DNA of 64,000 bases, from contig CALURI010000008.1 of assembly GCA_944323135.1 (NCBI GenBank), positions 1 through 64,000 of the forward strand, read 5' to 3'. Of this stretch, positions 7,926-64,000 are shown in pieces. Position 1 is the first letter of the stretch. Each line of letters opens with the position of its first letter. The position numbers and the translations under genes were made by a program. The notes beneath the pieces were generated by a model. The model searched no databases, was not told where the DNA came from, and worked only from the letters and a program-made list of their open reading frames with translations. The stretch comes from Candidatus Gastranaerophilales bacterium (GTDB lineage: Bacteria; Cyanobacteriota; Vampirovibrionia; Gastranaerophilales; Gastranaerophilaceae).

Positions 7926-8354
7926 ATGTTTGAAAATCTTAAAAAGTTTTTTTTGTCGAAAATTCTCAGACGTAAATATTACAGAACAGGCAAATGCAAA
8001 GCCTGCGGTAAATGCTGTACACAAATATATGTGAAGCACTACAAACATGTTGTGCAAGACGAAAAAGAATTTGAAAAACTACAATATCTTCATAGGTTTT
8101 ATACTTACTTAAAAATTATCGGCAAAGACGATATCGGACTAATCTTTGAATGCCAAAACCTTGATCCAATCAGCCATAAATGTAAAATTCACAAAACACG
8201 TCCTGGCATTTGCAGGCGTTATCCGCAAGAAGAATTATTTTCAATGGGTGGGGCACTATCAGATGATTGCGGGTACAAAATGGAACCTATTATTCCGTTT
8301 TCCGAAATATTAGCAAAAACAGCCAAAAAGAACAGGAAAAGGAATAAATTATAA
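7926..8354 (+). CDS. YkgJ-family cysteine-cluster protein
   Basis: A 142-residue protein of the YkgJ/zinc- or iron-chelating family (PF03692 type). The ligand Cys are visible in order: CKACGKCC (residues about 23-30), FECQNLD, HKCKIHKTRPGICRRYP and DDCGY. These proteins bind a metal or small cluster and are of poorly defined function. The N-terminus (ENLKKFFLSKILRRKYY) is basic and amphipathic, and the C-terminus is very basic. There is no Shine-Dalgarno site; TGATATTAT (-10 box 7914-7919) ends 6 nt before the ATG, so the mRNA is probably leaderless. Its stop overlaps the end of the convergent 8349 gene by 6 nt. Confidence 0.82.
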   Translation: MFENLKKFFLSKILRRKYYRTGKCKACGKCCTQIYVKHYKHVVQDEKEFEKLQYLHRFYTYLKIIGKDDIGLIFECQNLDPISHKCKIHKTRPGICRRYPQEELFSMGGALSDDCGYKMEPIIPFSEILAKTAKKNRKRNKL

Positions 8355-8942
8355 AATAGAGATATCAGTATTATTTAATTCAACTATATCAAAATATCTG
8401 CTTAAATATGCTTCATCAGGTTTGTTTTGGCAAGCTTTCGGATTGACAAATTTATCCAATACAATTTCTAAAAAGTTATTTTTTGTATGAAGGACAATTT
8501 TTTCTTCACCTTTTAAACTACCTGCAAGAATTGATGTATCAATATCAGGTCTGTCACATATAATCTCAGCAAGTTTATTAACAGCATTAATTGTTCTTTC
8601 ACCGTTAACGCTTTTAATTGCTTCGCCGCCAATAATCCAAGCTGTTAATTTCCCTTTTGCCATTGTTTGTAATTCTTCTACTTTTTTAGAAATTTCATCA
8701 AGTACATGCTGAATTTTCCCATTTATCGGTACAAATTTAAGAATACCATCTTTTTCATTACGAACAATAACTGCAAGATTTTGTGCACCAGCTTCTGAGG
8801 TAAATACTTTTCCATTTGTCAGTTTACAATTATTGCCTAATCCTAAATGCCGATATGCACCGGAGGTAATTTCCCTTGCCTTATCATAGGCTTTTGGATT
8901 TAAAACTAAAAAAGAATGTCCCTGAAAACTAATATTATCCAT
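8349..8942 (-). CDS. Hypothetical protein with N-terminal ISFQG motif
   Basis: A 197-residue protein without a recognised domain. It opens MDNISFQGHSFLVLN, one of several proteins here with an N-terminal hydrophobic-x-F-[QT]-G motif. There is no signal peptide or transmembrane helix. The predicted composition is mixed alpha/beta with regular hydrophobic strands (LAVIVRNE, ILKFVPING, KLTAWIIGGEA, KIVLHTKN, FLEIVLDKF), consistent with one globular domain of about 180 residues. AWIIGGEAI resembles a Gly-turn but is not enough to call a nucleotide site. A ribosome site GGAG precedes the ATG. It is alone in its transcription unit. Function unknown; the shared start suggests a lineage-specific group. 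Confidence 0.7.
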   Translation of the reverse strand: MDNISFQGHSFLVLNPKAYDKAREITSGAYRHLGLGNNCKLTNGKVFTSEAGAQNLAVIVRNEKDGILKFVPINGKIQHVLDEISKKVEELQTMAKGKLTAWIIGGEAIKSVNGERTINAVNKLAEIICDRPDIDTSILAGSLKGEEKIVLHTKNNFLEIVLDKFVNPKACQNKPDEAYLSRYFDIVELNNTDISIL

Positions 8943-11516: not shown

Positions 11517-12140
11517 TTACCAAGGATAATCTCTGCTTATTTCCCATCCGTCAAATTGAATTAGCTTTGCACACATCCCACTTCCAGTTTTAGAGCATAA
11601 ATGATTGCAGGAATTTTTTATAAAAAGTTCTTCTCTTGTACCTTTCCAGCCACAATCATAAGGTCCAAAACCATAAGTTGTTGAAAATTTAAAAATAAAT
11701 CTGGAATGAGAATTATTATAACGTTCTGTTGCTTTTTTACAATCAGAATAATTTACACAAAAAAAATACAAACTATTATAATTTGAGAATCCTGAACCAT
11801 TTGGAAGAGCAACTAATGCATATTTATCAGAATAACTTGCTTCTGTATATTTAATGTGAGGTAGTAAATATTTTTGAAGCCACTCCATTTGTTTTTTCCC
11901 GTCACCATTACTAGATAGACTGTCTCCAAAGATATTCGAATCCCAATTATCCCAATCTCCGTAATCTGATTTTGCAGTATTAAAAGCTTGTGCCATTATA
12001 GAATTAAATGCTTTTAATTTTGTAGCAACAACTTTTTTTTGATGATTCTCTATTAACGAAGGTAATGTCAATGCTGCAACTACACCAATTATGCCTATCG
12101 TTATTAACACTTCTGCAAGTGTAAAAGCTTTTGACTTCAT
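11517..12140 (-). CDS. Prepilin-like protein (FTLAEVL class)
   Basis: A 207-residue protein with the class III signal MKSKA then FTLAEVLITIGIIGVVAAL, Glu at +5 after cleavage. The remaining 170 residues are a Cys-rich extracellular domain with CVNYSDC, PYDCGW, SCNHLCSK and GMCAKL, ending IQFDGWEISRDYPW. This C-terminal ending (C-x-K-[LI]-IQ-x-[DN]-GW-x-I-x-x-DYP) is shared with 14409-15149, so the two are paralogues. GGAG lies 7 nt before the ATG, and a perfect promoter precedes it. The divergent XRE gene at 12242 shares the promoter region. Assembly of such proteins into a pilus or pseudopilus is inferred from the signal; no assembly genes are in the window. Confidence 0.88.
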   Translation of the reverse strand: MKSKAFTLAEVLITIGIIGVVAALTLPSLIENHQKKVVATKLKAFNSIMAQAFNTAKSDYGDWDNWDSNIFGDSLSSNGDGKKQMEWLQKYLLPHIKYTEASYSDKYALVALPNGSGFSNYNSLYFFCVNYSDCKKATERYNNSHSRFIFKFSTTYGFGPYDCGWKGTREELFIKNSCNHLCSKTGSGMCAKLIQFDGWEISRDYPW

Positions 12141-14408: not shown

Positions 14409-15149
14409 CTAAAATCTAAGAGGATAATCTTTGGGAATTTTCCAACCGTTCATTTGAATAATTTTTGTACAATATGCTCTTTCATTTGTTACTTCTTCTT
14501 TACAACCCAAAGAATTATTATTATACAAATCTTCTTCAGTCCCATCCCAATAAAGAGTATACGGTTCAACTCCTTTTGAACTGTCATAAATAAATGTAAA
14601 ATATTTTATTCCTGATATTTCCCAAGGATTTCTACGGGTACCGGAATCTGAGGTTACATAATCTTGAAAATCTTTTGCATTTGGATAAGCCTTTATAGAA
14701 GTAGAACTTAAAAGGCACAGACTTCCATCCGAAAAATATATCATAATTTTACCTGCAGAGTCTACATCTAATTTTGTATAACTTAAATATGGTTTTAAAT
14801 ATTTATTAAACCAAGGCATAGGAAGCGGTTTAGTCATATCAGGATTTCCGTCCTCATCCTCTTCAAAACCTGTTTTACCCATTGTATCCCAATGTTCCTT
14901 TGGCCCGTTTTCATTCTCAGAAAGTTCTAAAGCCTGATTGATTGTACTGTAAAATTTTGCAAGACGTGTTTCTGTTACTTTTTTTCTATGATTTGCGATT
15001 AATGCAGGTAAAGTTAAAGCTGCAACTACTCCGATAATACCTATTGTTATTAGTACTTCAGCAAGAGTAAAAGCTTTTTTATTGATATATCTTTTTTCAA
15101 AAAAATTTTTTTTTAAATTTTTTATCTGATAAATTTTTTTTTGCTGCAT
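14409..15149 (-). CDS. Prepilin-like protein (FTLAEVL class, long leader)
   Basis: A 246-residue paralogue of the prepilin-like protein at 11517. Its leader before the cleavage site is unusually long and basic (about 25 residues, MQQKKIYQIKNLKKNFFEKRYINKKA), followed by FTLAEVLITIGIIGVVAAL. The extracellular part contains SLCLLSS, LGCKEEV and AYCTKI, and ends IIQMNGWKIPKDYPLRF, the same ending as the 11517 protein. The ATG at 15149 is chosen because GAGG lies 6 nt upstream; the TTG at 15161 lies before that site. A TTGACA-N17-TATTAT promoter precedes it and the divergent XRE gene at 15252 shares the control region. It has no separate terminator that I could see. Confidence 0.86.
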   Translation of the reverse strand: MQQKKIYQIKNLKKNFFEKRYINKKAFTLAEVLITIGIIGVVAALTLPALIANHRKKVTETRLAKFYSTINQALELSENENGPKEHWDTMGKTGFEEDEDGNPDMTKPLPMPWFNKYLKPYLSYTKLDVDSAGKIMIYFSDGSLCLLSSTSIKAYPNAKDFQDYVTSDSGTRRNPWEISGIKYFTFIYDSSKGVEPYTLYWDGTEEDLYNNNSLGCKEEVTNERAYCTKIIQMNGWKIPKDYPLRF

Positions 15150-15205
15150 TCTTAACCTCAAAATCTTTTTATTACTTTTTACAATATATACATTGTATCA
15201 CACAA

Positions 15206-29415: not shown

Positions 29416-30435
29416 ATGGATGTTAAAGCAATTAATAGTATGAGCGTTTTAAACTTTCAAGGAAAGTCCCAACGCCCGCAAAAATCACAAAAAAATAAAG
29501 AATTTAATCCTAATTATAATTCAAAACCTGTTATTGACAGCAGTAATGCAATGAGAAATCTTGTACTTGGCTTAATGGCATTAGGAGCAACAGCAGGGAC
29601 TTTATCAAGCTGTACTGAAGACATAATTGCAGAAGCATCATCATCTTCTTCTTCATCTTCTTCTGCAAATGCATCAATTCAAATCGGCGGACATTGCCAC
29701 CACCACGACACAGTAACAATTATTAAACCTGATACAATTCATGATACAGACACAGTAATTCATACAGAAATTGTACCGGTTTATGTAAAAGATTATCCGT
29801 TCCACATTGCAGATTCTTTAATCGCGCAAGGACAAAATATAGGAGTTCCTGTAGACGGCCCTGTACCTAACGGAACAGGTCGTGACAGTGTTGTATATGT
29901 AGGTTCTAAAGCTCATAACAGATATGACAATCAATTCTACGAATCAATGGTTGATAGCATCGGAACAAATAAACGTGAATTATCAGTTGTAACAAAAGTT
30001 GTTGATATGTATGAAGATGATAACCCTAAAACATATTATCTAAAAGGTGTAGTAACAGATGTTCCGGGAAAAGGAATTAAAATTACACGTTACATAGCTA
30101 ACACAGATAAAAAACCAGGAGACAAAGATCAATATCTTTGGAATTATGCCGGTTACGAAGTTCGTACAAATCAAAGAGACGGTAAACAAAATATTCGCTC
30201 AATCTTTGATAATAACAATAACTTGGTTTACCGCGGCAATTACGAAAGAGGACTAAACCCGGGATCATTTATGTACGGATCAATAATTTTAGATCCTGAT
30301 ACAGGTAACCCTGTCTACGATGAAAACGGAGAACCTCAATTTGCACAATATGACTTCGATCAAGCAGTAATTTATTCAGATTACGCAAGAAGAAGTGACG
30401 ATTTCGAATATCCGGGTTGGCAATACGGAGAATAA
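29416..30435 (+). CDS. Lipoprotein-like protein with N-terminal LNFQG motif
   Basis: A 339-residue protein of unknown function with an odd order of parts. Residues 1-46 are polar and contain LNFQGKS (12-18). Only then comes a lipoprotein-type signal: MRNLVLGLMALGATAGTLSSC (46-66), with lipobox LSSC. A poly-Ser/Ala stretch (75-87) and HCHHHD (93-98) follow, then an acidic beta-rich domain with DTVTIIKPDTIHDTDTV repeats and YYLKGVVTDVPGKGIKITRY. GGAGG lies 10 nt before the ATG at 29416, whereas the internal ATG at residue 46 has no ribosome site, so the long N-terminus is real. If lipidated at Cys66, a 65-residue leader must be removed. It lies in a single unit between recA and a terminator. 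Confidence 0.75.
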   Translation: MDVKAINSMSVLNFQGKSQRPQKSQKNKEFNPNYNSKPVIDSSNAMRNLVLGLMALGATAGTLSSCTEDIIAEASSSSSSSSSANASIQIGGHCHHHDTVTIIKPDTIHDTDTVIHTEIVPVYVKDYPFHIADSLIAQGQNIGVPVDGPVPNGTGRDSVVYVGSKAHNRYDNQFYESMVDSIGTNKRELSVVTKVVDMYEDDNPKTYYLKGVVTDVPGKGIKITRYIANTDKKPGDKDQYLWNYAGYEVRTNQRDGKQNIRSIFDNNNNLVYRGNYERGLNPGSFMYGSIILDPDTGNPVYDENGEPQFAQYDFDQAVIYSDYARRSDDFEYPGWQYGE

Positions 30436-33554: not shown

Positions 33555-33728
33555 TTAATCTCTTCTTTCGAATTCATCTAATGTAGTTCCATCAGATAAT
33601 TTCCATTCAATTCTACCATTTATTGCTCTGTTTTTAATTATAGCCGCTGCGGCAGAACATGATTCAAGAGGAATATCTTCTTTTGCTTTCCACAAACCAT
33701 TTACATCAGATTTTATAAATAAACTTTC
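33555..33728 (-). pseudogene. Truncated DUF4357-like remnant
   Basis: A 57-codon open stretch on the minus strand that begins straight after a TGA and has no start codon with a ribosome site. It reads ESLFIKSDVNGLWKAKED, then IPLESCSAAAAIIKNRAING and RIEWKLSDGTTLDEFERRD before TAA. The S-AAA-x(6)-NG-x(2)-W-x(4)-DG-x-TL pattern is that of the DUF4357 C-terminal domain found at the end of GIY-YIG and similar proteins. It overlaps the last 23 nt of the kinase-like gene in another frame. A decayed gene or a frame-shifted tail of that protein is possible. Confidence 0.55.
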
Positions 33729-35415
33729 TCATATTTTCATAACCTTTTACAGTTATATTTCTTGGATTTGCAAACTTTAATCCGGTAAAAATATTGTTAA
33801 AAAGTTCTTCTGAGAAATTAATGGTATTTTCTAACAAATTATTTAAAGTTTCATTTGCAATATAAGAAGAAAAATTATGTTTTGCATGATTTCTGAATTC
33901 TCTCACCTTTAATACTGCAACTTCTGAGATATTAAGAGTATCTAAAATTTTACCGTTATAGACCGTATTTTGAGATTTTTTCATAATATTTTGTATTTTT
34001 TTTATTTTGTGAATTGACTTAGAATCATTTAAGGTGTTGTCTAATATTTTTATAGGGGTATCATAAAGATCTACAACATTGCTTAACAATAATCTGGATG
34101 AATTAAAATTTGTTTCATATAAGGGTCTGTATTTAAATCCTAAATTTTCCAATAAATCTAAATTTGGTGTAAAAATTCTTGGGTTTCTGTCATTGATATA
34201 AAATTTATGAACGTTTTCTTCTTCATTAGGCATTTTGGCTGCCATTCTTATTATGTAATCATAAGTATCTTGAGTATAATTTGTCAAATTCTTATACCAA
34301 TAATTACCATAATCTAACATTGATTTCAGATAATCTGATTTTGTTTTGTTAAAACTTGAATCTAATTGTCTTACAGCTTCTTTTCTAAAATCTTGAACAG
34401 AACTTATTGAACAAAGATATGATGACGGAGACGCTAAAATATTACGATCAGGGAGGTTTGGGTCAACGTGAGAATATGCATCACGATAATCAGAAAGAAA
34501 TTGTAATTTTTTCATTTCTAATTTTAAAATATTATCGTCAACTTTTTTATAAACTTCTGCTTTAGATTTTTCTGATTCAAGAGAACGATTTATATATACT
34601 TTTTCTGATGAATATGGCCAATTTTTAGTAATTTTTTTAATATATTCATATCTCATCTTATGATAATTTGATTTTGCATCAAGGTATGACCTCATGAATT
34701 GTTCTTTCTCGGCTAAATTATCGAAACTTTCCAGATATCGAGGCATTGATGCCATTTCAAACATTTGCGCATTTTCCGGGAATTCTGATAACGGTAATAA
34801 TATTTTTTGACTTTTTTGATTATCAAAAAAATTTATTTTATTTATTTTTTCAGTCCATTGGTAGTCTATAAAATTTACGATACCGTTTTCTCCGATAAGA
34901 ATATTTTTTCCGTTTAAATCTCCATGGTATATGCCCAATTTGTCTAATTCAAACATTTTATTAAAAAGAGAATTTAAATGTTCTTTTGTATACCGATTAT
35001 GTTTTGAAACACACTTACCTGGGACAAATGTTGATATCAAATAATGTTGACCTGAATTTTCAACTCTTGCAACAGGTTCTTGACCTCCAACTATATTCGT
35101 AGGGATTAATGACAAATTTTCGTATTCTTTTAAATAGTCATCATTATAACCAATTTTATTCTTTTTTATAACAATGTCAGAAAGCTTCGGATGATTAAAT
35201 CGGTATGTTTCACCTCCAATACCTTCACCTAACTTTATAACATTTAAACCATTATTAATAAATTCATCAACTTCATTTCGCAACAAAGTTTTTATCGAAT
35301 TATATTTGCTGTTAAAATCTTCAAAATCTGAACTTCCGAAACTAACCTGTTTTTTCTGAGAGAAATTATTCTTTTTATTATACTTTTGATAACTTAATAT
35401 TGGTACTATTTCCAC
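33706..35415 (-). CDS. Protein-kinase-like protein
   Basis: A 569-residue protein with a bacterial kinase-like fold at residues about 58-200. It has a G-loop (LGEGIGGETYRF, 62-73), a Lys pair IVIKK (81-85), a Glu-rich helix (DYLKEYENLS), the catalytic loop IYHGDLNGKN (162-171, HxD with Asn171) and a metal Asp in NFIDYQW (Asp184). All major motifs appear intact. The remaining 370 residues are helical and unrecognised. Near the start is VSFGSS (24-29), related to the F-x-G motif of other proteins here. The GTG start at 35415 has AAGGA 7 nt upstream. It overlaps the HAD phosphatase gene by 38 nt. Substrate (protein, sugar or lipid) unknown. Confidence 0.78.
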   Translation of the reverse strand: MEIVPILSYQKYNKKNNFSQKKQVSFGSSDFEDFNSKYNSIKTLLRNEVDEFINNGLNVIKLGEGIGGETYRFNHPKLSDIVIKKNKIGYNDDYLKEYENLSLIPTNIVGGQEPVARVENSGQHYLISTFVPGKCVSKHNRYTKEHLNSLFNKMFELDKLGIYHGDLNGKNILIGENGIVNFIDYQWTEKINKINFFDNQKSQKILLPLSEFPENAQMFEMASMPRYLESFDNLAEKEQFMRSYLDAKSNYHKMRYEYIKKITKNWPYSSEKVYINRSLESEKSKAEVYKKVDDNILKLEMKKLQFLSDYRDAYSHVDPNLPDRNILASPSSYLCSISSVQDFRKEAVRQLDSSFNKTKSDYLKSMLDYGNYWYKNLTNYTQDTYDYIIRMAAKMPNEEENVHKFYINDRNPRIFTPNLDLLENLGFKYRPLYETNFNSSRLLLSNVVDLYDTPIKILDNTLNDSKSIHKIKKIQNIMKKSQNTVYNGKILDTLNISEVAVLKVREFRNHAKHNFSSYIANETLNNLLENTINFSEELFNNIFTGLKFANPRNITVKGYENMRKFIYKI

Positions 35416-36883
35416 TTTTAATTCCTTTTTTATTTTCCAAAAAACGATATCCGGTATAACCTAATAAACCCGCCAATATAACAAGAGTCAGAGTTTTAAA
35501 ATATTGAAAATTTTTTGCAGATTTTTTTTTTGCTCCAAAAATTAATGTTTTTAAATTTTCAGACATTGAATTTTTAAATATTTTATTTTTTTCTGCATGA
35601 ATTTTTATAACTTTTTTAATCCCATCATCCAAACAAGCAAAATCTGCAACAACTATTTTATTTATATGAGAAAATGCATCAATTAGCAACTGTAATTTTG
35701 TATTTTTATTTTTCATTACAATTCCGTATATTGGTAAATCTTCAATTTTCTTAAGATAACCGTTTTTATTTAATTCTTTTCTCAATCCATTTATATATTG
35801 ACTATTTTCACCGCTATATACTTTATGTAAATCTTTAAGCCTTTCTTTCATATCTTTTCTGTAAAAATCTTTATATAATGAGTTTTGTTCACAGGTTTTT
35901 ATAAAATCTTCATCTAAATATTCTAACGGATTTAACATTTCAAAATCGTTTGAACCATCGCCTGCGGCAATTACAATATCATTATTTTTTATAGCTTGTT
36001 TCAATGATTTTTTTGTATCATACAATTTTGTTAACGGACCGTCTTCTATTTTAGGAGTGATTGAACAAGATTTTCTATAGTGATTATTCTCATCTGCCGG
36101 TTCCCAAGCTATATGGTACTGTATTTTTTGAGAATCCATATATTTTTTTAAATCATTAATGAAATTATCATATATCCAATTTCTCTCGGGGCAAAAACCA
36201 TAATCCGGAGGGAATATTAAATTAAATTTTAATTTACCGTCGTTACGGGAACCTAAAACATATTCAGCAATTGGAGTTTTATGTTCCTGAATTTTCCCAT
36301 TATCTAAAGGGAGTCTTTTCCATTCATCCGGATTTAATTTCCATTTGCTAAAAAGGGATCTCTTACCGTAGTCAGATACAGAATTTTCAGAATCTGCTTC
36401 TATGAATTTAATATAATATTTATCAGTTAACCGTTTTAATTCCGAATGAATTTTATCACCGTCCCAATTTGTTAATTTTTTAATATCTGCTTCTTTCTCT
36501 TTTTGCGGAACATTATAATCAAATGGGAATTGGTTTCTAATATAAAAATCATTATCATTTCGCAATTTAACAAATCTGTCACTGCCGTCTTTAGTAATTA
36601 CCGTTTCAGGAAACGGTAATTTAAAATCTCGCATTTTTAACAACCAAGAAATTGACTCATATTCTCCTAATGTTCGTCCCGTAGTTATATTAAAATGTAT
36701 ATCTTCCTGTGTGTTTTGGAAAAATTTACTTATTTTATTACAATATTCAGGCATAAAACTGTTAGCATTAGGATTGTGAAGAGAAGAATGAGTTGCAGGA
36801 CAATAAGTACCGTCAAAATCTGAATATAAATCAACTTTTCCTGCAGTAAACACTATTTTATTATTTATACCTGATACTCGCAC
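35378..36883 (-). CDS. HAD-superfamily phosphatase with C-terminal membrane anchor
   Basis: A 501-residue protein. Motif I is DFDGTYCP (22-29; Asp22 nucleophile, Asp24 acid/base), motif II is the Thr/Gly region NITTGRT, and motif IV is GDGSNDFEML (308-317). This Cof/sucrose-phosphatase-like arrangement with a large cap usually hydrolyses sugar phosphates, but protein or lipid substrates are not excluded. The N-terminus carries IVFTAGK (10-16), related to the F-x-G motif elsewhere in the window. A single helix, TLTLVILAGLLGYTGYRFL (464-482), near the C-terminus anchors it, tail-anchored style, with the catalytic domain cytoplasmic. The GTG start at 36883 has AAGGA 9 nt upstream. It is the first gene of a two-gene unit with the kinase-like protein. 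Confidence 0.8.
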   Translation of the reverse strand: MRVSGINNKIVFTAGKVDLYSDFDGTYCPATHSSLHNPNANSFMPEYCNKISKFFQNTQEDIHFNITTGRTLGEYESISWLLKMRDFKLPFPETVITKDGSDRFVKLRNDNDFYIRNQFPFDYNVPQKEKEADIKKLTNWDGDKIHSELKRLTDKYYIKFIEADSENSVSDYGKRSLFSKWKLNPDEWKRLPLDNGKIQEHKTPIAEYVLGSRNDGKLKFNLIFPPDYGFCPERNWIYDNFINDLKKYMDSQKIQYHIAWEPADENNHYRKSCSITPKIEDGPLTKLYDTKKSLKQAIKNNDIVIAAGDGSNDFEMLNPLEYLDEDFIKTCEQNSLYKDFYRKDMKERLKDLHKVYSGENSQYINGLRKELNKNGYLKKIEDLPIYGIVMKNKNTKLQLLIDAFSHINKIVVADFACLDDGIKKVIKIHAEKNKIFKNSMSENLKTLIFGAKKKSAKNFQYFKTLTLVILAGLLGYTGYRFLENKKGIKSGNSTNIKLSKV

Positions 36884-46414: not shown

Positions 46415-47152
46415 TCATTTATTATTTGCCATAAAATCCATAAACAATTCATCACGAGATTTAATAGTTTTTAAAACATAATTATAATCCTCAAGAGATA
46501 AAAGCTTATAATCATCCGTAATCTCGTAAGCAATTTGTTCCGGAGAAATATCTTTTTCTAATTTTTTCAAATGAGAATTTATATTTTGTTTGTCTTTCTC
46601 ATTTAAATTATATTTTTTAACCAACTTGTCACATACCAAATCGTTTTTCATAGTGTTTATTGTTAACGGTATAATAACCTCAGCAAGGCTTTCATCTTCT
46701 TTTAATGCTTTTGCCATACTATTTATAATTGCTTGTTTGAATAAAAAATCATATAATGTCTCAACTTTTTCATCTGACAACTCAAGTCCATCTACCACAT
46801 TTTCAATAAAAGAATCAACAATTTCTTCATTAGCAAAAGATGAACATAAATCTGCTGTTGATGAAAGGTTGTTAGTCTTCAAGAATTTATTAACAATTTT
46901 TTTTAATTTATGTATATCTTTATCTGATAATTCTAATTTTTTTGAAATATCATCATAAAAATTTTTGTCAAATTCATCCGATTCATTATTGCTAATTCCG
47001 GTAAATTTTACCTGACTTCTGCCTAAAACTTCTAAGGGGTTTAATTTATTATTAAAACTGGCTTGCTCACATTTTTGATTTTGTTCAAAATTGTTAATAT
47101 TTTTAGGCGTGTAATTATTATAACTAAAAAGATTTATACTATTAATTTTCAT
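46415..47152 (-). CDS. Hypothetical helical protein with N-terminal VKFTG motif
   Basis: A 245-residue protein of unknown function. It begins MKINSINLFSYNNYTPKNI and has VKFTGIS at about residues 47-53, the F-x-G motif shared with other proteins in the window, after a polar N-terminal stretch. The remaining 185 residues are acidic and helical, with two similar halves: LELSDKDIHKLKKIVNKFL, LELSDEKVETLYDFLF, and YNLNEKDKQNINSHLKKLEKD. No membrane helix. The ATG at 47152 is preferred because the MKINSIN opening resembles related starts (MNISPVS, MDVKAINS); an upstream ATG at 47188 also lacks a ribosome site. It is divergent from the GH57 gene. Confidence 0.65.
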   Translation of the reverse strand: MKINSINLFSYNNYTPKNINNFEQNQKCEQASFNNKLNPLEVLGRSQVKFTGISNNESDEFDKNFYDDISKKLELSDKDIHKLKKIVNKFLKTNNLSSTADLCSSFANEEIVDSFIENVVDGLELSDEKVETLYDFLFKQAIINSMAKALKEDESLAEVIIPLTINTMKNDLVCDKLVKKYNLNEKDKQNINSHLKKLEKDISPEQIAYEITDDYKLLSLEDYNYVLKTIKSRDELFMDFMANNK

Positions 47153-57282: not shown

Positions 57283-58434
57283 TTATTTTTTAGTTTTGGC
57301 ATTTGCTTCTTCTTGCATTTGTTTTTCTTGTTCTGCACTCTTTTTGATAGTTTCCTGAACACCTTTTTGAACATTTGCAGGATCATAATCAGGATTTACA
57401 TATTCAATTTTTGCATTTTTCTTCAATGATTCTGTAAGGTCATCAATAAGTTTAAGTTGTTTTTGATTTTCAAGATAAGCTTTAATATTATCTTTCACTT
57501 TTTCAAAAGGTTCTGTGCTTGCTGCAGCTCTGTCAGTAACCATTATAATGTGATAACCGTATTGAGATCTTACAGGTTTATCAGAAATAGAATTTGGCTT
57601 CATTGAAAATGCGGCTTTTGAAAATTCCGGAACCATATCTTTTTCTGCGAAGAATCCTAAATCACCGCCTTTAGAAGCTGTTGTTGTGTCTTCAGAATTT
57701 TCTTTTGCAAGTTTTGCAAATTGTGTCATATCTTTTTTAGCTTCTGCTAAAATTTGATTAGCTTTAGCTTCTTTTGCTTTTATCTCTTCTGCAACTTTTG
57801 CTTTTACCGCTGCATCATCAAGATTTTTATTATTTGGATCTGATTTAACAATTTCTGTTATTTCTTGAGGATTTACTGCAATAAGAATATGAGAAGCTCT
57901 TACTCTGTCAGGATGTTTAAATTTATTTAAGTTGCTGTCATAGAATTTTTTAGCATCCGCATCAGAAACTGCTGCTGTACCTAAAGATTTTGCAAGTTTT
58001 TTCATTTTAACTTCTTCTTTTAAATCTCTTTTAAAGTCAGCATTTGACATACCGTATTGTTTCAAAAGAGCGTTAAGTTGTTCTTTTGAACCTAATTTGT
58101 CGATAATTTCTTTTACAGCATCATCTACATCTTGATTTGTAACTTTTATACCGCGTTTTTGCATTTCTTGATCAAGAAGTGATCTTACAATTAATTCATT
58201 AATAACTCTTTCTTTAATTAAAAGATATAAAAAGTCGTTCTTACCATCTTTAACATTTATACCAAAAGCTTTTGCAAATCCGGTATTTGCTTGTTTATCA
58301 AATTCCTGATCAAACTGACCTTGCGTAATTGTTTGGTCATTAACTTTAATAATAGCCTCACCTGATTTCAAGCCGCATCCTGTAAATAATACTGCTGAAA
58401 GCGCAAGCGTTGCCAGTAATTTTTTCCCTCTCAT
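57283..58434 (-). CDS. Parvulin-type peptidyl-prolyl isomerase lipoprotein (SurA/PrsA-like)
   Basis: A 383-residue exported folding factor. MRGKKLLATLALSAVLFTGC is a lipoprotein signal with lipobox FTGC, so it is lipid-anchored outside the inner membrane. An N-terminal chaperone region (IIKVNDQTITQGQFDQEFDKQ) is followed by a parvulin domain: VRASHILIAVNPQEI, then after an insert FAKLAKENSEDTTTASKGGDLGFFAEKDMVPEFSKAAFSMKPNSISDKPVRSQYGYHIIMVTDR. The insert is about 60 residues and charged. The C-terminal tail is disordered. The ATG at 58434 has GGAG 6 nt upstream; the frame extends 15 codons further without a ribosome site. It begins 25 nt after mfd, so likely the same operon. Confidence 0.9.
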   Translation of the reverse strand: MRGKKLLATLALSAVLFTGCGLKSGEAIIKVNDQTITQGQFDQEFDKQANTGFAKAFGINVKDGKNDFLYLLIKERVINELIVRSLLDQEMQKRGIKVTNQDVDDAVKEIIDKLGSKEQLNALLKQYGMSNADFKRDLKEEVKMKKLAKSLGTAAVSDADAKKFYDSNLNKFKHPDRVRASHILIAVNPQEITEIVKSDPNNKNLDDAAVKAKVAEEIKAKEAKANQILAEAKKDMTQFAKLAKENSEDTTTASKGGDLGFFAEKDMVPEFSKAAFSMKPNSISDKPVRSQYGYHIIMVTDRAAASTEPFEKVKDNIKAYLENQKQLKLIDDLTESLKKNAKIEYVNPDYDPANVQKGVQETIKKSAEQEKQMQEEANAKTKK

Positions 58435-58459
58435 AGTGTCTCCTTTTTTAATATCTGAT

Positions 58460-61400
58460 TTATTTATAAGCAAATTCATTACTTACTTTATATATATAAT
58501 AAAACAAATCTGTTAAAATGTTAAATATTTCATTAAAATTCATATAGGAATTATTTAATAATAATATAGAATTTCCATCTGTACAAGCTTTTGGAGCTAT
58601 TGTAAATTTTATACGTTTCAATATTTCAGAAGGCAATGAATGCTGTATAATTTTCCATTCCGGCTGGCTAAAAGGTGTGTAAATCCTTATATTATCTTCG
58701 GTTTCTCTTATTAATGAAATTTTTACCTCTGTAGCTGCAAGTCTTATCCTGATAAGTTTTATTAAATTTTCAACACTTTCAGGAGGTTTGGCAAATCTAT
58801 CTTTCCATTCCTCGGTTATATAATCCAATTCAACATCAGATTTTACATCCGCCAAACGTTTATATTCAATCATTTTTTGTTCTGCTGAACCTACCCATTC
58901 ATCAGGAATAAATGCTGTTACATTAATATCAACAATAGTAGGTTCAGATTTTTCAACAGCTTGACCTTGAAGCTCTTGAACTGTCTCTTCTAATAATTGA
59001 CAATATGTATCAAAACCTACATTCACCATGTGACCGTGTTGTTTTGTACCTAAAATATTACCGACTCCTCGAATTTCAACATCACGCATTGCAATTTGAT
59101 AACCGCTTCCGAGATTTGTAAACTCTTTTATAGCCTTCAATCTTTGGACAGCATCCGGAGTAATTTCCTTTGATTTTGTATATAAACAATAACAATAAGC
59201 CTGTCTTTGAGAACGTCCGACACGGCCTCTAAGCTGATAAAGCTGTGCCAAGCCAAACTTATCAGCATTATGGATAATCATAGTATTTGCATTTGGGATA
59301 TCAATCCCGTTTTCAATAATTGTGGTTGCCAGAAGAATGTCATACTCATGATTTGCAAAATCTATGATAACTTTTTCCAAAGTTTTTTCATCCATTTGCC
59401 CGTGTCCTATTGCAATACGTGCATTGGGAACAAGTTTCTGAAGTTGAATTCTGAATTCATCAATAGTTTCTACCCGATTGTATAAATAAAATACCTGTCC
59501 TTCACGGTCTAATTCATGAATTATTGCATTTTTTACCATGTTTTCATTCCACTCGCCGACATAAGTTTTTATCGGAAGTCTGTTTTTTGGCGGAGTATTA
59601 ATTATTGACATATCTTTTATACCGGATAATGACATGTATAATGTCCTTGGAATTGGGGTTGCAGACATTGTAATAATATCAATATTTTCACGGAATTGTT
59701 TTAATTTTTCTTTATGTCTTACACCAAAACGATGTTCTTCATCAATTACTAAAAGACCTAAATCTTTAAAAATAATACCTTCTTGCAAAAGTCTGTGAGT
59801 CCCGACAACAACGTCGCATTCACCTGTTGCAAGATGCTTAATAGTTTCCTTTTGTTCTTTTTGAGAACGAAAACGGGATAAAAGTTCAACATTAACCCCA
59901 AATGGTTTAAATCTTTCACTTATTGTTTGATAATGCTGAAATGCCAAAATTGTTGTCGGAACAACAACAGCAACTTGTTTCCCTGATGTTACTGCTTTAA
60001 ATATTCCGCGCATAGCAACTTCGGTTTTCCCAAACCCTACATCGCCGCATATCAACCTATCCATTGGTTGTTCGCTTTCCATATCAGCCTTAACATCATT
60101 GATAGCCTTCATCTGATCAGGTGTCTCTGTGTATTCAAAAGCCTCTTCCATTTCAACCTGCCAAGTTGTATCAGGCAAGAATTGAATTCCTTGTTGCATT
60201 TTGCGTTTAGCATAAAGTCTTAATAAATCATAAGCAACTTGTTCAACTTCTTTTTTAACACGAGTTTTAGTATTCTCCCAGTCTTTTCCGCCCATTCGGG
60301 AAAGTTTTGGTTTTATAGCTCCTGAACCTCTGTATCGTACAAGCAGATTTATCTGTTCTGCAGGGATATGCAGTCTGTCTTTATTTGCATATTCAATAGT
60401 TAAATAATCTTTTAACTGGCCGTCAATTTCTTGCTGTGATAATCCTTTGTATATTCCGACACCATGAATACTGTGAACAACATATTCTCCCTCTTTTATA
60501 TCGTTAATATTTTCGATATACTCCGGTTTTTCTTTGTAATAAGAACGCTTTGTAGAGGTAATTTCTTTTGTACGTTTATTAAATAGTTCTCTGTCCGTAA
60601 TTATTATGGTTTTAAAATCTTCTAAAACAGAACCGTGAGATGAAATACTCTCATTATATTCAATATCAAAAATATTACGCTCTGCAAGAATTTCCTTAAC
60701 CCTTTCAGGATAATCAGTTGCGATTATAATTCTGTAATCGTTTTTTAAAGCTATGAAATTTGCGATATCATCAAGTTTTGCCCCAAAATTTTGAATAGTT
60801 TGAGTATTAAATTCAATAACCTCATCCATTTCACTGTCAAGAAAATTATTAAACCCAACCTTTACAAATCCAGCACACTTTTGTATAAATTCTTCAAAAG
60901 GCAGATGATTACGCCCTTTTAAATCAATATTAAGACCAAGTTTTAAATTTTCTTGAAGTTGTTCTTCAAAATTTTTATCTAAATTTTCATACTTTGTATA
61001 AATTTCAGAAGTTTCATCAAAAACAAGAATATAATCTTTAAAATAATCTAAAATGCTTACAAAATCAGAATTAAAGTAATTTTGATATACTTCAATCCCC
61101 TCAAAATACCCATCATCATCTTCAGGTTTAATTTCAGAGGGAATTCCTTTTTCAATCGTAAATTTATACATCGGCATAACTTTTGCTGACTTTAATTTTT
61201 CGATTGATTTTTGAGTTTCGTTGTTAAAATATCTGATATCAACAATTTCATCTCCCCAAAGTTCAACTCTTACAGGATGTTTATCTAATGAATAAAAATC
61301 TATTATATCTCCTCTTATGCTGAATTCTCCTATATCAGAAACCATAGTTGAACGTTGAAATCCCAGATTTATAAATTTTTGTGCAAGTTCTTTTATATCA

Positions 61401-63714: not shown

Positions 63715-64000
63715 ATGAATATAAGCCCAGTAAGTTTTACAGGAATAAAAAATATCGGTTTTGCAAAAATTTCAAAAGACACTCCGGAAATACAAATATC
63801 ACGTAACATTTTGAATATGGAACTTACTAATGATGTTGAACATAAAGATTTATCAGAATATAAAAAAATATTAAAAAATTTTCCAACATTAAAAAATAAT
63901 ATTAATGATAAATTTGTAAATATCGAAATGACATCAATTTATAATAATACTGGTGATTTAACATTTATCCCACGTTTAAACGGGCAGGTTATTCCGTTTT
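63715..64000 (+). CDS. Partial F-x-G-motif protein (5' part only)
   Basis: An open frame from the ATG at 63715 to the window edge, at least 95 codons. It starts MNISPVSFTGIKNIGFAKISK and continues with strands and helices rich in Asn, Ile and Lys (EIQISRNILNMELTNDVEHK, FVNIEMTSIYNNTG). PVSFTG near residue 6 matches the motif at the start of other proteins here. GGAG lies 12 nt before the ATG; a TTG directly upstream (63712) has 9-nt spacing and is in frame, so the start may be three bases earlier. It is divergent from murA. The rest is outside the window. Confidence 0.65.
   Translation, partial: MNISPVSFTGIKNIGFAKISKDTPEIQISRNILNMELTNDVEHKDLSEYKKILKNFPTLKNNINDKFVNIEMTSIYNNTGDLTFIPRLNGQVIPF

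Follow-up and report, generated by a model that had tools for sequence, protein, structure and literature searches.

Our comparative analyses show that proteins of very different kinds encoded in the window, that is, positions 1-64,000 of contig C8 in a Gastranaerophilales genome of 1.95 Mb and 31% GC, begin with the same short N-terminal tag. As the initial annotation of this DNA had proposed, the tag is lineage-specific and is shared by different cargo: it is retained in orthologues of its carriers and missing from FtsH and cytosolic GH77 paralogues. It has two parts: it opens with M-x-[IV]-x-x-[IV]-[NQS] and, after a variable linker rich in Asn, Ser, Lys and Gln, ends with [VIPA]-[NSAT]-F-x-[GA] (F-x-R in one family). 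Roughly 4-5% of Gastranaerophilales genes carry it. All sampled genomes of the family also encode components of a divergent flagellar-type type III secretion system (T3SS), here called system B. The reading that we favour, drawn from sequence comparisons, is that the tag would be an N-terminal docking or export signal for this system, although on this our judgement is evenly balanced. Data from the same genome beyond the window come from sampled stretches (L numbers), and other genomes are designated by G numbers.

Anatomy and frequency of the tag

The six motifs from which this work started are all where the initial annotation had placed them, both in the window sequence and in its translations (Table 1; proteins are named below by their first coordinate). 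They had been described as a single hydrophobic-x-F-[QT]-[GA] element, preceded in most cases by Asn/Ser-rich starts. Side-by-side comparison of the N-terminal hits from the window and the own-genome stretches brought out the bipartite form, with its upstream start. The residue following the Phe is free, not restricted to Gln or Thr; the terminal Gly may be Ala, Ser or Arg depending on the family, and the Asn/Ser-rich segment is the non-conserved linker. Tagged examples outside the window include MTIQAVNPINGNQNNNSSVSFNGKK (L042:5600), MKINPVQIYTKNVNFQSQN (L100:1970) and MRISPVQNYYR...NVLSFMG (L032:6841). The tag spans about 8-65 residues, with its F-part located anywhere from residue 5 to residue 64. 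No Pfam or NCBIfam model spans it, and literature searches yielded no description of it, nor of a T3SS in Gastranaerophilales.

When the regular expression [VIL]xF[QT][GA] is applied to N-termini of 64 residues, the window shows an enrichment (5 N-terminal against 2 internal matches, p=0.0035). In 796 kb sampled elsewhere in this genome the enrichment is slight: 8 matches are N-terminal and 18 internal (ratio 1.9, p=0.11). One match in the window, VLFTG in 57283-58479, is an ordinary lipobox and not a tag. The result outside the window and the lipobox match are in line with a chance resemblance produced by a loose expression run on 60 proteins. The statistics differ for a position-weight model of both parts, trained on the window, stretches L030-L049 and the HAD orthologues, and tested on held-out stretches of the same genome (L090-L109 and L220-221; 376 genes): the first part occurs in 51 of these genes and is accompanied by the F-part in 11, the expectation after shuffling residues 3-72 (1000 times) being 4.9 +/- 2.0 (P=0.005). 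In other genera of the family, random stretches contain 4 two-part tags against 1.5 expected (P=0.048), and stretches around T3SS genes contain 10 against 3.2, a count that includes orthologues of the training families and that 0 of 1000 shuffles reach. This held-out enrichment and the conservation of the tag in orthologues of four families (see below) make chance resemblance very improbable. It is already contradicted for the 8349 and 35378 proteins and may still apply individually to those at 29416, 33706 and 63715. An unbiased search for three-residue N-terminal motifs was dominated by type IV pilin signals and did not recover the tag. Some 38 tagged proteins, picked by hand from about 860 kb, extrapolate to 80-100 per genome.

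Among the sampled lineages, the tag is confined to the family of the window and, by one GH77 tag, to its sister family f2. The two-part scan revealed no excess in class f3 (2 against 1.8 expected), in families f4, f6, f13 and f14, or in a Prochlorococcus-like control whose AT content is just as high (1 against 1.1 expected); it is also flat in f2 (2 observed, 1.7 expected), yet the GH77 of that family bears the tag.

Conservation and nature of the tag

Orthologues of the 8349 and 35378 proteins, checked for loss of the tag, retain it. The 27 same-genus orthologues of the 8349 protein start with M[ND]x[IV]SF[QC]G, or identically 1-2 residues further in, and the Ser, Phe and Gly of the tag are invariant in all of them despite identities down to 32%. 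The four synonymous codons of this invariant Gly are used 8, 6, 7 and 6 times, and because they vary so freely we conclude that selection acts on the protein. A nucleotide-level effect, in which AT-rich early codons would aid translation with the amino acids as a mere by-product, could explain the abundance of Ile, Asn, Lys and Ser, encoded by cheap codons at 31% GC. It is nevertheless already contradicted by the synonymous variation at the Gly and is further at odds with the changing distance of the F-part and with the absence of the tag from the AT-rich control, so that we find it scarcely credible.

The HAD phosphatase 35378 has relatives in 20 of 97 genomes of the family, belonging to 14 of 41 genera. 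Its orthologues carry the bipartite tag with a linker of varying length, which places the F between residues 12 and 56. In the alignment of 13 of these proteins (25-61% identity), M1, F12 and G15 are invariant, and so are the catalytic-type residues DFD, GR, GD and ND; as judged from these sequences, evolution protects the tag as strictly as the active site. The AAA+ ATPase L032:6841 has 22 tagged orthologues, in which Phe and Gly are likewise retained, with the F at residues 11-64, whereas the FtsH paralogues retrieved in the search for it are devoid of the tag. Likewise, 67 of 75 matched sequences of the GH77 4-alpha-glucanotransferase have F-x-R/K after the same start, which six cytosolic-type GH77 paralogues lack. 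The D, E and H-D of GH77 are present in 29 of 29 tagged sequences examined and, since these catalytic residues are kept, what the tag moves elsewhere seems to be a functional enzyme. Positions 3 and 6 are occupied by I, V or L in 18/22 AAA, 12/15 HAD and 66/75 GH77 orthologues. In total, conservation among orthologues extends over four unrelated families at 25-70% identity.

The cargo is diverse, comprising AAA+ ATPases, GH77, HAD, PHP-like, kinase-like, CheR-type methyltransferase, transglutaminase-like, adenylate kinase and FtsH-like proteins together with many of unknown function. Genome G276 encodes a tagged adenylate kinase (L236:3342-4058) and a tagged protein combining AAA and peptidase M41 (L236:5778-8840), which are further tagged forms of enzymes that are normally cytosolic or membrane-bound. 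In several of the tagged proteins, the tag precedes a hydrophobic segment rich in Gly, but hydropathy indicates no membrane segment in most tagged proteins. The tag does not match a Sec or lipoprotein signal peptide, with its short basic n-region and a hydrophobic core directly behind it: most tagged proteins have no hydrophobic segment after the tag, the 29416 protein being a partial exception.

In the AlphaFold2 (AF2) models of the 8349 protein (predicted local distance difference test, pLDDT, 89; predicted template modelling score 0.88) and of the HAD phosphatase, the tag has no secondary structure and lies outside the fold. Residues 1-8 of the former are unstructured, its first residues having pLDDT<50, a value also found for residues 1-12 of the latter. 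A segment that is the most conserved part of its protein and yet is predicted to be unfolded has the pattern of a linear recognition motif, and a sorting, docking or recruitment role, as initially suggested, would be its natural reading.

A divergent flagellar-type export apparatus

Our T3SS survey covered 60 sampled genomes of the family, from 41 genera. The divergent FliP of system B occurs in 60/60 and its FlhA is full-length in 54 and fragmentary in 3 more. A second, canonical FlhA is found in 25 genomes, and flagellin in exactly those 25; Flagellin_N has no match in the genome of the window nor in the 34 others without the canonical second FlhA (35/60 in total). In the phylogenetic tree, the system B FlhA forms a separate clade with short branches, and for this reason we consider it conserved rather than decaying. 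It scores 704 bits against the flagellar FlhA model (cut-off 772) and 584 against the SctV model; by these profile scores, system B is flagellar-type, nearer to FlhA than to SctV. FliE, FliF, FliH and FlhA of system B are encoded in one cluster in the genome of the window and the rod proteins elsewhere. A gene for 338 amino acids between fliF and fliH gave no match to FliG, although strong divergence is possible and motor genes were not searched. Incomplete flagellar gene sets without filament genes have been reported in gut Gastranaerophilales and read as flagellum loss (Di Rienzi 2013, PMC3787301; Soo 2014, PMC4040986). By contrast, the filament-less set described here is a separate FlhA/FliP clade present in all 60 genomes, and in the 25 flagellin-bearing ones it sits beside a complete flagellar set.

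A soluble protein made of the FlhA C-terminal domain alone (hereafter FlhA-C-only protein) is encoded in 57 of the 60 genomes and is closest to the system B FlhA. It is conserved throughout the order, shows similarity to FlhA in the C-terminal part only and has an extra N-terminal domain of ~140 residues; we found no published description of it. Within 1 kb of its gene and on the same strand, 75 of 79 Gastranaerophilales-type loci have a GH77 gene, mostly at a distance of 20-60 bases, and the FlhA-C-only gene and tagged GH77 are both present in the sister family f2 as well. A tagged HAD gene is inserted between flhB and flhA in G262 and lies directly upstream of flhA in G279. In five f3 genomes, whose FlhA is related, the FlhA-C-only gene is absent and the tag is not enriched. 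Two genomes of family f14 (G052 and G067) have 10-12 FlhA-family matches each, many with the C-domain only, and no tag in the sampled stretches; in this other lineage of the phylum, FlhA C-domain proteins have expanded independently.

Possible function of the tag

These gene neighbourhoods suggest type III export as the reader of the tag. In the mechanism that we propose, the short hydrophobic start and the downstream Phe anchor, held on a flexible linker, would together act as a protein-level targeting signal recognized by the system B export apparatus or by its FlhA-C-only companion, which, being encoded beside tagged GH77, would be the best candidate receptor or sorting factor. The tagged proteins would then leave the cell via system B. 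Recognition by the T3SS and export are both steps that we infer from the sequences, and they would be akin to what happens with early flagellar subunits. This idea has a direct precedent: in early flagellar rod and hook subunits, a hydrophobic signal at the N-terminus is combined with a docking motif that contains a Phe, the gate recognition motif FxxxPhi, and in Salmonella FlgD the two must lie 19 residues or more apart (Bryant et al. 2022, PMC8983047). Like that code, the tag has small hydrophobic residues close to its start (in about the first 7 positions), a linker that is disordered and a second element centred on Phe, and a flagellar-type gate is encoded in the same genome. It differs in having F-x-G/A/R instead of FxxxPhi, a spacing often below 19 residues, and a cargo of enzymes and lineage-specific proteins, not rod or hook subunits, with a sequence conserved across unrelated families.

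Several observations weigh against export by system B. A hydrophobic residue at F+4 occurs in only 24/106 tags (7/22 AAA, 1/15 HAD and 16/69 GH77), and the F lies before residue 20 in 78/106 (at residue 6 in the 8349 protein), so that 28/106 comply with the 19-residue spacing. These two counts rule out membership of the tag in the flagellar gate recognition motif class, and because of them we propose that it works like the flagellar signal, not that it is one. The f3 genomes mentioned above have a related FlhA yet no tag, and G083, a 99%-complete assembly with tagged AAA and GH77 proteins, has FliP but no full-length FlhA was found in it. The GH77 operon probably goes back to a single event in an ancestor, as probably does the flhB-flhA insertion, which means that the loci counted are not independent, and the insertion in G262 belongs to the canonical system A, not to B. 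Moreover, the tagged AAA+ and kinase-like proteins need ATP, and a role in the cytosol suits them no less well, unless another cell receives them by injection.

This last point leads to the main rival explanation, in which nothing is exported and the tag serves within the cytosol as a docking or recruitment peptide. It would gather enzymes at an intracellular hub, which might be the FlhA-C-only protein, a membrane microdomain or a granule. The tagged AAA+ and kinase-like enzymes use ATP and would make sense in the cytosol, as would the tagged adenylate kinase and a GH77 that looks active; the nearly universal FlhA-C-only protein is similar to the C-terminal part of FlhA only, and G083 keeps its tags without a detected FlhA. 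We nevertheless consider docking alone unlikely: we identified neither a common partner fold nor a granule gene, export machines are known to use the FlhA-C module as a docking platform, and many of the tagged proteins are lineage-specific with a fast turnover, as export substrates tend to be (e.g., the 46415 protein, with relatives in 2/96 other genomes). Transfer to the envelope or the outside by another route, such as a type IV pilus or type II-like system or an N-terminally guided membrane insertase, would account for the Gly-rich hydrophobic segment after several tags and for the lipobox-like LSSC of the 29416 protein. It conflicts with the lack of a membrane segment in most tagged proteins and we saw no neighbourhood suggesting such a system (contractile injection systems and type IV, VI and II secretion systems were not searched), which makes this route quite improbable.

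Other known signals offer partial parallels. The N-terminal signals of type III effectors are not known to have a conserved sequence; the tag is like them in being N-terminal, disordered, polar and Ile-Ser-Asn rich, and attached to many unrelated enzymes, and unlike them in its recognizable bipartite consensus and in the flagellar type of system B. The encapsulation peptides of microcompartments and the cargo-loading peptides of encapsulins are also short modular terminal tags on flexible linkers, but the tag studied here has no predicted helix and follows another consensus.

Returning to export through system B, its boldest form, which we regard as possible though doubtful, is that a filament-less machine, kept also by the many species without flagella, exports the ~80-100 tagged proteins of each genome, their bipartite signal being recognized by a soluble receptor that arose by duplication of the FlhA C-domain, and that this code might be usable on neighbours or on a host. 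The Gastranaerophilales are common uncultured gut bacteria that had been thought to be losing flagella. If they instead have a working filament-less secretion system with a readable tag, its full list of substrates could be predicted from sequence, and a poorly understood recognition rule of T3SS would become testable with a signal conserved enough for residue-by-residue mutation. Even if the tag sorts proteins only inside the cell, it would be a protein-sorting code on about one gene in 20 for which we found no published description.

The tagged proteins of the window

Table 1. Tags and tagged proteins of the window, and system B and FlhA-C-only loci of the same genome (G000)
Feature	Position	Strand	Remarks
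Tag MDNISFQG, no linker; ISFQG at residues 4-8	8919..8942	-	Protein 8349-8942
Tagged 197-aa protein, CheD/NTAN1-like fold	8349..8942	-	AF2, Foldseek, VIA-align
Tag MDVKAINSMSVLNFQG; LNFQG at residues 12-16	29416..29463	+	Protein 29416-30435
Tag MEIVPIL...QVSFGSS; VSFG at residues 24-27	35329..35415	-	Kinase-like protein 33706-35415
Tag MRVSGINNKIVFTAGK; VFTAG at residues 11-15	36836..36883	-	HAD-like phosphatase 35378-36883
Tagged HAD-like phosphatase	35378..36883	-	Weak HAD matches, aligned invariants, AF2 pLDDT 85.5
Tag MKINSINLF...(linker)...SQVKFTG; VKFTG near residue 50	46997..47152	-	Protein 46415-47152
Tag MNISPVSFTG; VSFTG at residues 6-10	63715..63744	+	226-aa protein 63715-64395
System B loci	L220:8033-14152 (G000:C12); L107:11552-13945 (G000:C6); G000:C13:12996-13571		FliP contig is C13
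FlhA-C-only gene	L095:7847-9322 = G000:C3:147847-149322	-	Other loci L283-L362

The fold predicted for the 8349 protein matches CheD in Foldseek (E=3.7e-4), and VIA-align gives Z scores of 9.3 with CheD and 9.5-9.8 with NTAN1. No Cys or His is fully invariant among its 27 orthologues, one Cys being nearly so, and for this reason this family with a CheD/NTAN1 fold is possibly not a deamidase. Its C-terminal FDIVELNNT is also conserved.

The genes of the HAD phosphatase and of the kinase-like protein, both tagged, overlap by 38 nt; profile searches returned only weak kinase/phosphotransferase matches for the latter. The 46415 protein has one usable relative (in G287, 23% identity), in which both ends of the tag are kept (MKIQPQI...SLVNFQG). 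The protein that starts at 63715 continues beyond the window, ending at contig position 64395. No orthologue of the 29416, 33706 and 63715 proteins was found among the sampled loci, whole genomes not having been searched for them. In the 29416 protein, the tag is followed by a hydrophobic stretch, the lipobox-like LSSC ~65 residues in and a long serine run; the tag is here combined, unusually, with what looks like a lipoprotein signal. Finally, pilin-like proteins, whose near-identical start FTLAEVLITIGIIGVVAALTLPSLI dominated the unbiased motif search, are very numerous, both in the window (11517-12140 and 14409-15161) and at many other loci, such as those in stretches L036, L096, L107, L220 and L221.
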